Assembly (NCBI RefSeq): GCF_000244875.1
Contig: NC_016791.1
Location: 4,221,001 to 4,285,000 of the forward strand
Direction of reading: 5' to 3'
DNA from: Clostridium sp. BNL1100
GTDB lineage: Bacteria > Bacillota > Clostridia > Acetivibrionales > DSM-1351
DNA: 64,000 nucleotides
Under the pieces are notes generated by a model. The model was not told the DNA's origin and did not search any database. It saw only the letters and a list, made by a program, of their open reading frames with translations. Shown one piece after another: positions 4,452 to 44,621 of this stretch (position 1 is the stretch's first letter; the number at the start of each line of letters is the position of its first letter). The position numbers and the translations under genes were made by a program.

Positions 4452-5846
4452 TTACTTGCCTATAGTACCTTCTTTTATGAGCTTCGCTCTTGTATCAGCC
4501 CATTTTTTATTAAGGCCGTTCATTATATCATCATATGTACCCTTTTTGTTGCCTAATGCTGTATCTACAATATCCTTCTTAAAGTTTTCATTCCATAAAC
4601 CTACTTCAGATTCTTTATCTATAGCATCCAGCCATCCGTTTTCATTCTTGGTTCCGTCGTTTATTGCTCCCTTGTCTATAAGGAGTGTAACGCCCATATC
4701 CTGAAAGTTCTTTAAAGTATCGGGATATGCCGAACCTTTAAGGGACGGTATAAGACCTTCATTCTGAGCATAGTTTGATTCATCAAGGAACCACCATAAA
4801 AATGCCTTTGCAGCTTCTATGTTTTTGCTGTTCTTACTTATACACAGTTTGTAATCGCCTGCGGCCTGTGTATACATTTTTCCGTCAATACTATACGGGA
4901 ATGGCATGTAGGACACATCATCAGGGTTTTTAGCCTTTGATTTTATCTGTGGAATTGCCCAAGAGCCAAGAGGCATTGTTGCAATTTTGCCATCAGCCAG
5001 CAGTTGCTTTGAACTTTCCCAGTCAGTAGTCATTGGATCGTCCTCAACCAACTTTTGACTTACAACATCAAATAAATATTTATAAACTATATAGTGAGGT
5101 TTTCCCTTTGCAAACGGGTCATCCTCATGAAGCATTACCTGATTTGTATATGTATCGCTGCCGGACACACTGTCTATGTAACCTTCCCATGCATTAAGAG
5201 CCCAACTGTCCTTGTAGTTCGTATATAATGGAATAGCATCTGTTTTGTCTTTGATGAGTTTCAAATCTGCAAGGAATTCATCCTCGGTTTTGGGAAGAGT
5301 CGTAATACCCGCTTTTGTAAATACACTCTTGTTATATACAATACCCTGTCCGTTTCCGTTAGGTGGAATTCCGTATGTATCCTCTCCAACATATCTGTCC
5401 TGAACGAAATCATACTTCTTTTCCAACTCTGCTTTTTTCCCTAATGGAATGAAAAAGCTTGGAAGATCCGCATCTTTCATCTTTGCAGACATAAATAAAA
5501 CATCGCCGTATTCGTTGGAATTCATGCGGATTGCAAGATCACCTTCGTAGTCCTTTGATGTTTCAATATTCACCTTTATGTTAGGATACTTTTTATTGAA
5601 TTCTCCAATATAATATTTCCAGTTTTTCTCGTAGCTGTCCAGTTCCATATCAGTTCTTGTGTTGTAGAACAATATTTCGCCTTTAATGTCCTTGGCTGCG
5701 GAAGTTGTACCTGCTGCAGTTGATGATGCCGATGAGTTAGAACCGGTATCGTTAGAACTATCTTGCGAGCCGCATGCAGTAAAAGCGGTGGCTAGCATTG
5801 CCAGACTTAGGACTAATGGTGCAATCCTATTTTTAATCATTTTCAT
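4452..5846 (-). CDS. Extracellular solute-binding lipoprotein of the sugar ABC transporter
   Basis: 464 residues. A lipoprotein signal (residues 1-26) ends in FTAC-G, giving a lipidated Cys26, followed by a Ser/Asn/Thr-rich linker and a family 1 extracellular binding domain (ILFYNTRTDMELDSYEKNW onward). It would capture oligosaccharides at the outer membrane face and hand them to the two downstream permeases. It is the first gene of the operon, with its own sigmaA-type promoter (5906-5934) and a LacI-type operator between promoter and gene. Sugar specificity cannot be read from sequence; mannan oligosaccharides are most likely by context. Confidence 0.93.
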   Translation of the reverse strand: MKMIKNRIAPLVLSLAMLATAFTACGSQDSSNDTGSNSSASSTAAGTTSAAKDIKGEILFYNTRTDMELDSYEKNWKYYIGEFNKKYPNIKVNIETSKDYEGDLAIRMNSNEYGDVLFMSAKMKDADLPSFFIPLGKKAELEKKYDFVQDRYVGEDTYGIPPNGNGQGIVYNKSVFTKAGITTLPKTEDEFLADLKLIKDKTDAIPLYTNYKDSWALNAWEGYIDSVSGSDTYTNQVMLHEDDPFAKGKPHYIVYKYLFDVVSQKLVEDDPMTTDWESSKQLLADGKIATMPLGSWAIPQIKSKAKNPDDVSYMPFPYSIDGKMYTQAAGDYKLCISKNSKNIEAAKAFLWWFLDESNYAQNEGLIPSLKGSAYPDTLKNFQDMGVTLLIDKGAINDGTKNENGWLDAIDKESEVGLWNENFKKDIVDTALGNKKGTYDDIMNGLNKKWADTRAKLIKEGTIGK

Positions 5847-41930: not shown

Positions 41931-42079
41931 AAAAGGGGTTGTTACAAAACCGAAAGTTTTTTGTTTTAACACATGTACTCCCGTATAAAATTATATCAAT
42001 GATTGCTTCCATTGATACAATTTATACTTTGAGTACAGGTTAAACAAGATAAAAATTAATTTTGCGACAACCCCTTTTA
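41931..42079 (-). mobile_element. MITE-like foldback element A (short form)
   Basis: About 149 bases bounded by inverted ends AAAAGGGGTTGTTACAAAA and TTTTGCGACAACCCCTTTT. Its minus strand aligns along its length to the outer arms of the element at 62137-62447 (shared CAATCATTGATATAATTTTA and AGTATAAATTGTATCAATGG), but lacks the 160-base centre. It sits between the chaperone frameshift ORF and the tape-measure gene and carries no ORF. Confidence 0.75.
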
Positions 42080-42082
42080 TTT

Positions 42083-42265
42083 TTACCTCTTTTTTGGCTT
42101 GTTTTTGTTCATTTCCTTTTTATCGTTTTCAATCTTAATCTGAATAGCCGCAGTTATAAAGGCCCTTTCTTCTCTTGGAAGCTTCAAAAACTCACCGGGT
42201 GTTATATGAAATTTGTGAAGGCAATAGTATGCAATATTAGCATCGCTGTCGCCTTCGTTAATTAG
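42083..42265 (-). CDS. Frameshift extension of tail assembly chaperone (gpGT-like)
   Basis: 60 codons from 42265 to a TAA at 42083-42085, with no ATG/GTG/TTG start of its own. The frame is -1 relative to XkdN and opens exactly at the slippery heptamer A AAA AAC that ends XkdN. The product (LINEGDSDANIAYYCLHKFH; KLPREERAFITAAIQIKIEN) resembles the T part of lambda-type tail chaperones. A shifted ribosome would make a fusion of about 202 residues. Position before the tape measure is the usual one. Confidence 0.8.
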   Translation of the reverse strand, partial: LINEGDSDANIAYYCLHKFHITPGEFLKLPREERAFITAAIQIKIENDKKEMNKNKPKKR

Positions 42266-42690
42266 TTTTTTGCTTCGTCTACCATATCTTCCATAGTAAC
42301 GTCAAAGCCGTTAACCTCTTGGATTTTAGCCAGATAATCGGCATATTCTCCCGGCTTTAGCATGGTTTTAAGAAGAGTATCCTCACCCATGCAGCCATAG
42401 CTGTTCTGCAGCTCCGCATTATGTAAATCAGGGTAAACAGTACATCTCGCAGCAAGCTTTCCAAGGTAAGCATTGTAGTCGGTTTCGGGAGTATACTGGT
42501 TTTTCTTGCCCGGAATCTGCACCTTGCGAGTACATGCCTTTCTTATGGCTTCATCCTCCTCCGAAGTAATAGAGCAGATTTCCCACTCCACAGGCGCCCC
42601 GTTTTCATCTACAAACCTCTTTGATGCAACATATTTTACATTCTCATTGTCTAACACATTTTGCCTTAAAAAAGAACTTAATCCACTCAT
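42262..42690 (-). CDS. xkdN: XkdN-like tail assembly chaperone (gpG-like)
   Basis: 142 residues (SGLSSFLRQNVLDNENVKYV start; MVDEAKN end). It resembles XkdN/DUF6096-type chaperones that hold the tape measure during tail assembly. The last codons GCA AAA AAC TAA contain the slippery sequence that leads into the following frame. Both short and extended products are usually needed in a fixed ratio. Confidence 0.88.
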   Translation of the reverse strand: MSGLSSFLRQNVLDNENVKYVASKRFVDENGAPVEWEICSITSEEDEAIRKACTRKVQIPGKKNQYTPETDYNAYLGKLAARCTVYPDLHNAELQNSYGCMGEDTLLKTMLKPGEYADYLAKIQEVNGFDVTMEDMVDEAKN

Positions 42691-42712: not shown

Positions 42713-43189
42713 TTAACATTCCATTCCGGGAAGTACGGAGAATTTTTCGTGTATTTCAAAATCTTCAAAAGTAAAGTCCATGTCTTCATCCAGATATTCT
42801 GCATCAGCATCAAACTTTGTAAGTATTCCGCCATCAACATTGCAGCCCTTTAAAATAACTGTCTGCCTTCCTGCGCTGGAACTTGAATCTTCATTTGTTA
42901 CCTGAATATCAAAATATATATCCTCGCCTGTGTCCTTGTATCTTGCCAGCAAATCTCTGAAAATAGAGGTATTGTAATGGAAGGTGGCAGAGCCGGTTCC
43001 CTTCCAGCCCGTAGCCTTGTTACCTTTTCCCGTTCTGCCCAGAATAGGTACTTCACTCTTGGTTTTTTCAACCTTTGCTTCAAGATTTATAGCCTGCATA
43101 AAATTATATCTTTTATCCTCAATAGTAACGTAACATTCCGCCAAGGATGCACTTAACGCATCCTTTCCATTCATTGTCTGCATATTCAT
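42713..43189 (-). CDS. xkdM: Tail tube protein
   Basis: 158 residues of the XkdM family (MQTMNGKDALSASLAECYVT, KTKSEVPILGRTGKGNKATG, GTGSATFHYNTSIFRDLLA). It forms the inner tube of the contractile tail. Either ATG 43189 or ATG 43183 may start it; AAGGAGCGG favours the second by spacing. Encoded 15 bases after the sheath gene. Confidence 0.93.
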   Translation of the reverse strand: MNMQTMNGKDALSASLAECYVTIEDKRYNFMQAINLEAKVEKTKSEVPILGRTGKGNKATGWKGTGSATFHYNTSIFRDLLARYKDTGEDIYFDIQVTNEDSSSSAGRQTVILKGCNVDGGILTKFDADAEYLDEDMDFTFEDFEIHEKFSVLPGMEC

Positions 43190-43204: not shown

Positions 43205-44506
43205 TTATTGTACAACTGTGGTCATATAAAGCTGTTCCATAGAATTCATAATGGTAACAGCATCCTGAATTACAATTGCCCTTTTGCTGTCTCCCTTTGA
43301 AATAACAACATCTTCAGGCTTAAAGTTTTCAATGGCTCTTATGCTTTGAAGCTCCTGATGATGCTTTACAACATCATTCCAGAAGGAAATTCTTCCGGCT
43401 GCGTCATTTGGAACATTACCGTTGTATTTAGTGTTAAACAGAACGGCAATATCGTTTGCAATCTGATCAAGAACCCTGATTGTCTGATTTCTTCCGAAAT
43501 CGCTGTTCTTGTCATCAGTGTAAGATACATAACTGTTGATATCCTCAAGTATACGGATGTCATCTCCAACCCTGTGAAGAATAAATTTACCTTCTGAAAC
43601 GGCAGCTTCAAGTTCACTTTGTCTGAAATCAGCATTAACTGTAAACTCTCCGTCATATACCTTGTTTGTATTGCTCTTATTTACAGGGCAGCCTGCTGAC
43701 ATACCCGTTACCCAGTAAACTAATACTGACGGAGTTATCTCTACTGCAACATCATTTTGAACATTGATAACACCTTCATAATCTGCCGGTGTTCTGTAAA
43801 GGACAGTCTGGAACTTAACTCCCGACTCATCCCTCATTCTTTTTGTGAACTCAACAAACAAGTCTGTTACCTCAGGCGATGTTTCCAGACATCCAAGAGT
43901 ATTAAAGGAATAGGACTCAATCTTGTCAAGAAACGTTTGGTAGTCCTCTACGGTAATATTTTCGCCGTTGGTTCCGCCAATCAGTTGTATTCCGCTTGTT
44001 AATGCAATTTCACCAACAATAAAATCAACAAAATCATTGGGAACCATTTCAGCCATGCTTGAAACCGTTTGGGAATCTACTCTGGTTGCTCCCAGGAATG
44101 TCTGTACATCAAATCTGTTTGCATCGTTGCCATGCTGTGCAATAACAATTTTGAGATCATTTCCTCTGGTTCCCGCATATTTTGCAGTAGCATATTTACA
44201 TGCCGCCTTTTGTCCTTTATTGAGCTTATAAAAATATCCGGCTCTTATATGTCTGAACAAATCTCTGAGTCCTTTTAATTTCTCATCCTTTAAGTCATAG
44301 CCGAAAAGCTTCAGAGAATTCTTCTGGAAGCTGTCTGCTTCAACCTTGAAAACCTCTCCGTCAACGCCCCAGTCAAGAACCAGTGGCATTGCAGCATACC
44401 CCCTTTCGCTAAGTGTTGCGGTTGCCCTTGATGTACTTACAAAATTAATGTAGCTTCCGGGTAAAGCCTTGTTTTGTTTTAAAAAAGTGCCTCCTCCAAG
44501 TGCCAT
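43205..44506 (-). CDS. xkdK: Contractile tail sheath protein
   Basis: 433 residues from the ATG at 44506 (GAAAGGTGAATTTC upstream). Start ALGGGTFLKQNKALPGSYIN and the segments KFILHRVGDDIRILEDINSY and YVSYTDDKNSDFGRNQTIRV are signatures of XkdK-type sheaths. Presence of a sheath shows the tail is contractile (myovirus or R-type). An upstream ATG (44527) lacks a good site. Confidence 0.94.
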   Translation of the reverse strand: MALGGGTFLKQNKALPGSYINFVSTSRATATLSERGYAAMPLVLDWGVDGEVFKVEADSFQKNSLKLFGYDLKDEKLKGLRDLFRHIRAGYFYKLNKGQKAACKYATAKYAGTRGNDLKIVIAQHGNDANRFDVQTFLGATRVDSQTVSSMAEMVPNDFVDFIVGEIALTSGIQLIGGTNGENITVEDYQTFLDKIESYSFNTLGCLETSPEVTDLFVEFTKRMRDESGVKFQTVLYRTPADYEGVINVQNDVAVEITPSVLVYWVTGMSAGCPVNKSNTNKVYDGEFTVNADFRQSELEAAVSEGKFILHRVGDDIRILEDINSYVSYTDDKNSDFGRNQTIRVLDQIANDIAVLFNTKYNGNVPNDAAGRISFWNDVVKHHQELQSIRAIENFKPEDVVISKGDSKRAIVIQDAVTIMNSMEQLYMTTVVQ

Positions 44507-44621
44507 GAAATTCACCTTTCCTTTCAAAAATTTTGTTTATTAAATTATCAACCTCATCAAAGAATACATTTTATAAATCTGCTCCTTCGAAAAGATTGGT
44601 ATTTCTAATATTGCTGATTTG

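Follow-up and report, generated by a model that had tools for sequence, protein, structure and literature searches.

A predicted programmed −1 ribosomal frameshift in xkdN, the tail chaperone gene of a headless contractile-tail cluster in Clostridium sp. BNL1100

INTRODUCTION

The slip heptamer of phage lambda is G_GGA_AAG, and that of the bacterial dnaX gene is A_AAA_AAG, which works together with an upstream SD stimulator. In lambda, gpG and the G portion of gpGT are binding partners of the tape measure protein and T is that of the tube protein; frameshifting of this G/GT type, in which a −1 shift takes place at a low level close to where the first frame ends, has been widely conserved among long-tailed phages (PMC5009743). 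In lambda, as in the long-tailed phages surveyed by Xu, Hendrix and Duda (2004), the gene lies between those of the tube and the tape measure, and its extension is encoded in an overlapping −1 frame.

The xkdN gene of Clostridium sp. BNL1100, located in the 64,000-nt stretch of contig NC_016791.1 analysed here (the window), shares this arrangement, and its putative shift site occupies the same position. Unlike lambda gpG/gpGT, it belongs to the TAC_5 chaperone family, carries A_AAA_AAC with a directly adjacent 0-frame stop and a conserved 3′ stem-loop, and serves a contractile rather than a flexible tail. With XkdN and YqbN of the Bacillus subtilis PBSX and skin elements it has in common the Phage_TAC_5 family and the fold match to 3klu, whereas for those no frameshift extension is annotated as part of a joined chaperone gene in any of the phage records examined, and the corresponding PHROGs are families of unknown function. 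Bacterial dnaX and the IS3-type −1 cassettes also resemble it in having an A-rich heptamer with a stem a few nucleotides downstream; in contrast to dnaX, the 30 nt preceding the xkdN heptamer showed no clear SD stimulator on visual inspection. A tentative AAAAAAC site has been given for a Paenibacillus larvae phage, in its tail assembly genes, and the available part of that report mentions neither TAC_5 membership nor a downstream stem (PMC6003738). In the open-access papers searched, neither frameshifting nor a stimulatory stem was found for XkdN, and no priority is claimed. Tail chaperone frameshifting is known in many phages; what is new here is the conserved hairpin and its absence at variants with a run of nine A (A9).

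RESULTS

The gene order around xkdN is sheath, tube, chaperone and tape measure (Table 1), so that the TAC_5 gene stands between the tube and tape measure genes, and further downstream follow LysM, YQBQ-like, DUF2577, sheath initiator, baseplate J, Mu gp48-like and VanY/peptidoglycan-binding genes. Between ∼33.8 and 45.7 kb we observed only tail, baseplate and lysis-type genes plus one sigma-like gene, and no head or packaging genes, which points to a tail-only contractile cluster, either a tailocin or PBSX-like. As judged from its genes, namely sheath, tube, baseplate and lysis functions without those for head or packaging, the cluster can be described as R-type tailocin-like. It holds the only TAC_5 gene of the genome, which is a single 4.6 Mb contig, and the closest named relatives in the homologue searches were Ruminiclostridium.

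Table 1. Coordinates in the window of the features discussed in the text
Feature	Position	Strand	Evidence
Tail sheath protein, XkdK type	43205..44527	−	PF04984 and PF17482
Tail tube protein, XkdM type	42713..43189	−	PF09393, E 1.2e-53
xkdN tail assembly chaperone, 0-frame product, G-like, 142 aa	42262..42690	−	PF08890 Phage_TAC_5, phrog_389, fold
Slippery heptamer A_AAA_AAC	42265..42271	−	Sequence; in phase in 90/98 homologous loci, other slippery A-runs in 7
0-frame stop TAA, directly 3′ of the heptamer	42262..42264	−	Sequence; adjacent or one codon off in nearly all homologues
Putative 3′ stimulatory stem-loop, set off from the heptamer by 8 nt; arms GAAGGCGA (42256-42249) and TTGCCTTC (42224-42217)	42217..42256	−	Folding, covariation in homologues
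−1 frame extension, T-like, 60 codons and stop, without own start codon	42083..42265	−	Relatives, PHROG matches, substitution pattern
Tape measure protein, 657 aa	39936..41909	−	PF20155, E 6.4e-26, and phrog_1068

The gap from the extension stop to the tape measure gene contains a palindromic element of ∼150 bp (41931–42078, ends GGGGTTGT..CAAAA), which has ∼40 full or partial matches in the genome and looks like a MITE; at another locus (L127), a 2 kb element that carries two IS3-like transposase frames is bordered by similar ends. A close relative (L002) does not carry this palindromic element and has a terminator-like hairpin (AGGCACTCC..GGGGTGCCTTTTT, at ∼4610–4650) in the gap before its tape measure gene, where it could reduce expression of the tape measure compared with that of the tube and chaperone; such a hairpin after the extension is not general, being present in 3 of 54 loci.

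Profile searching scored xkdN at 172.7 bits against PF08890 Phage_TAC_5 (cut-off 27) and matched it to phrog_389 with an E-value of 2.7e-50, and the predicted fold (mean pLDDT 86) matches YqbN, PDB 3klu (E 1.2e-9, TM 0.92 by target). The sequence-only reading had described a gene ending in GCA AAA AAC TAA with the heptamer at 42271–42265 in the correct phase before the stop, a −1 frame open for 60 codons and devoid of a start codon, and a product of about 202 residues, and each of these points was reproduced. The −1 frame begins CTA ATT AAC GAA (CTA at 42265–42263), contains no ATG, GTG or TTG in its first 20 codons and ends at a TAA stop (42085–42083), so that the predicted fusion comprises 202 aa with the junction ...DEAKN-LINEGD... 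and the tryptic junction peptide NLINEGDSDANIAYYCLHK. The extension is predicted as three helices and matches PHROG families of unknown function, with E-values down to 6e-8. In-phase placement of a slippery heptamer shortly before the first frame ends, together with an overlapping −1 frame that lacks its own start, constitutes the anatomy of the lambda-type G/GT genes.

Within the AT-rich window itself, such a motif is not exceptional: AAAAAACTRA occurs twice against 1.65 expected by shuffling, that is, at chance level, and for 10 of the 44 AAAAAAC sites on the two strands, the −1-shifted frame stays open over 60 codons or more. Calling the frameshift from the window alone was therefore rejected, whereas conservation across homologues goes far beyond chance. 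We compared 98 homologous loci, found in Bacillota genomes and in phages; the sources were genome contigs, viral contigs, other genomes and phage records. A_AAA_AAC was found in phase in 90 of them, A_AAA_AAG in two (L034, L115), A_AAA_AAT in one (L107) and an A9 run in four (L079, L083, L084, L110), while the one left, phage EJ-1, has a single-frame fusion; hence an in-phase slippery A-run is kept in 97 of the 98. The extension lies in the −1 frame at all loci except EJ-1, where it is fused, and L077, a split locus, and two loci (L030 and L107) have a premature stop within it. For the exact codon choice that spells A_AAA_AAC in 49 loci of <60% protein identity, conditioned on the amino acids and local codon usage, log10 P was −58.9 (∼1e-59), a figure to be read as an order of magnitude only, as the loci are partly dependent.

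In EJ-1 (L053:2498-3094, NC_005294.1), ORF55 covers chaperone and extension in one frame by virtue of one extra A upstream. As the heptamer string persists in this phage and its stem is strong (z −4.9), the single frame could possibly be a natural fusion arising from recent mutation, or a sequencing error. Homologues lacking the heptamer and having a normal start for the second frame, which would speak for a separate gene, were sought and not found, with the in-frame fusion of EJ-1 as the sole exception to the in-phase A-run. The conservation check proposed along with the original G/GT-type interpretation thus came out in its favour, which is further supported by the −1 extension and the scarcity of starts.

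The second frame itself is coding. The extension protein is conserved across loci down to ∼20–30% identity, and its conservation starts right at the heptamer, with L-I at positions 1–2. Comparison of the extensions of the window and a relative (L003) yielded 5, 6 and 23 differences at −1-frame codon positions 1, 2 and 3, respectively, a third-position excess that marks the −1 frame as coding and, at the level of substitution patterns, both frames as being under purifying selection. Two phage genomes, phiCDKH02 (L049:2501-2941) and PVJ1 (L059:2501-2899), have the XkdN-like gene annotated as ‘portal protein’, apparently a propagated misannotation.

Downstream of the heptamer we identified a stem-loop, which was absent from the sequence-only reading and strengthens the case for frameshifting. 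The window stem-loop has an MFE of −17.3 kcal/mol and a z of −1.95 versus synonymous recodings. Across homologues, the 70 nt after the heptamer gave a mean z of −2.9 against dinucleotide shuffles, compared with −0.5 for an upstream control. Because the region is coding, folding was also assessed against synonymous recodings that used local codon usage, and among 54 loci the mean z was −2.59, with 43 below −1.65 (t-test p 4e-18). In 37 of 53 loci, the first base to pair lies 6–9 nt beyond the heptamer, and the 5′-arm pairing probability climbs sharply there, exceeding the synonymous control, while the distance to the 3′ arm varies by lineage, suggesting that the stem was rebuilt more than once. 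An Rfam search returned no real match.

Covariation was analysed in 15 relatives having alanine at extension residue 15. In this set, 90.5% of the cells pair, and double changes occurred at two pairs, from G-C to C-G in six and from G-C to A-U in four. A conserved leucine codon is the reverse complement of extension codon 4 in 12 of the 15 (GAG:CTC, CAA:TTG, CAG:CTG); as the leucine remains unchanged while its codon tracks the partner, protein constraint alone is an insufficient explanation. The covariation score was reached by 0 of 500 shuffles and was lost when the partner was slid, and the leucine-codon match had a permutation p of 7e-5, both figures being somewhat inflated by shared ancestry. 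The stem class of the window itself hardly varies (94.7% of the cells pair) and displayed no compensatory changes; the covariation comes from a sister class. Overall, the alignments and folding indicate a stem-loop that appears to be conserved, selected and helpful to slippage, and A_AAA_AAC, a spacer of 8 nt and the stem at 42256–42217, with structure constraint throughout the family, together form a canonical −1 cassette.

Slip-site variants differ in their structure. At the A9 loci the run stands directly before TAG and no stem follows, and these four together with L115 (A_AAA_AAG) have no excess structure (z −0.4 to +1.0); the other A_AAA_AAG locus, L034, has slight structure (z −1.2), and at the A_AAA_AAT locus the stem is strong (z −4.3). 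In Escherichia coli, A_AAA_AAC is a far weaker site than A_AAA_AAG (PMC5009743), for which reason strong or long runs may need no stem, a lead drawn from small numbers and from A9 loci of few lineages. We tentatively propose, as a possibility falling short of an even chance, that within the TAC_5 family there is a trade-off between the strength of the slip site and RNA structure: A_AAA_AAC would be kept with a stem at +7/8, whereas A9 members, and perhaps those with A_AAA_AAG, would have dropped the stem, and A9 members may reach the same fusion by transcriptional slippage, for which these four loci are candidates.

DISCUSSION

With the anatomy, the conservation, the codon constraint and the RNA structure constraint all seen directly, we infer that xkdN very probably undergoes a programmed −1 ribosomal frameshift. 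Ribosomes would decode GCA AAA AAC and mostly terminate at the TAA, giving the 142-aa chaperone, while a minority, aided by the stem-loop that meets the ribosome 7–8 nt downstream of the heptamer, would slip one base back to AAA AAA, resume at CTA and read 60 further codons into the 202-aa fusion. The adjacent stop may tune the ratio of the two products via release factor competition. On the model of lambda gpG and gpGT, the short form may be expected to coat the tape measure protein, and the extension to attract tube subunits before dissociating from the completed tail.

Against this reading we counted the weakness of A_AAA_AAC in E. coli, the lack of compensatory changes in the window's stem class and the one-frame fusion of EJ-1. 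The fusion might instead arise by transcriptional slippage, with RNA polymerase adding an A in the A-run and ribosomes then reading one frame. The A9 loci, which occupy the same place and have no stem, are as polymerase slippage would predict; in the window, however, the run is A6 followed by C, which is short for efficient transcriptional slippage and below the ∼9 or more expected of such a homopolymer, and both the phase requirement and a stem conserved at +7/8 suit ribosomal slippage. We consider transcriptional slippage very unlikely for the window.

A separate gene, with its own start or translated by reinitiation after the adjacent stop, would be in keeping with the 29 of 52 loci having some ATG, GTG or TTG in the early −1 frame, but the positions of these codons are not conserved, a start-like codon accompanied by an SD-like 4-mer, itself weak, occurs in only 3 of the 52 divergent loci, the window lacks early start codons altogether and protein conservation starts at the heptamer. 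Moreover, the open stretch of the −1 frame starts only 15 nt (median) before the heptamer, too little space there for a start of its own. Independent translation of the second frame was rejected as neither starts nor SD sites are conserved, and we judge it even less probable than slippage by the polymerase. Loss of function is conceivable in a cluster without head genes, and EJ-1 offers a single-frame version, from which the −1 frame could be regarded as a C-terminus broken off by an indel, without any programmed event. Such decay is contradicted by the recurrence of this break at the heptamer in almost 100 loci, by purifying selection acting on the two frames and by selection for the RNA stem; it was rejected on the conservation in 98 loci and the third-position-dominated change, and we give it next to no credence.

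The programmed ribosomal frameshift thus favoured corrects the annotation of a large family, as most of the phage records examined give the XkdN-like gene without its extension, which sits in PHROGs as fragments of unknown function. It also adds a conserved, putatively stimulatory hairpin to a phage chaperone family, and so would provide a handle on how the chaperone-to-fusion ratio is set in headless contractile particles, in which tail length control is still required.
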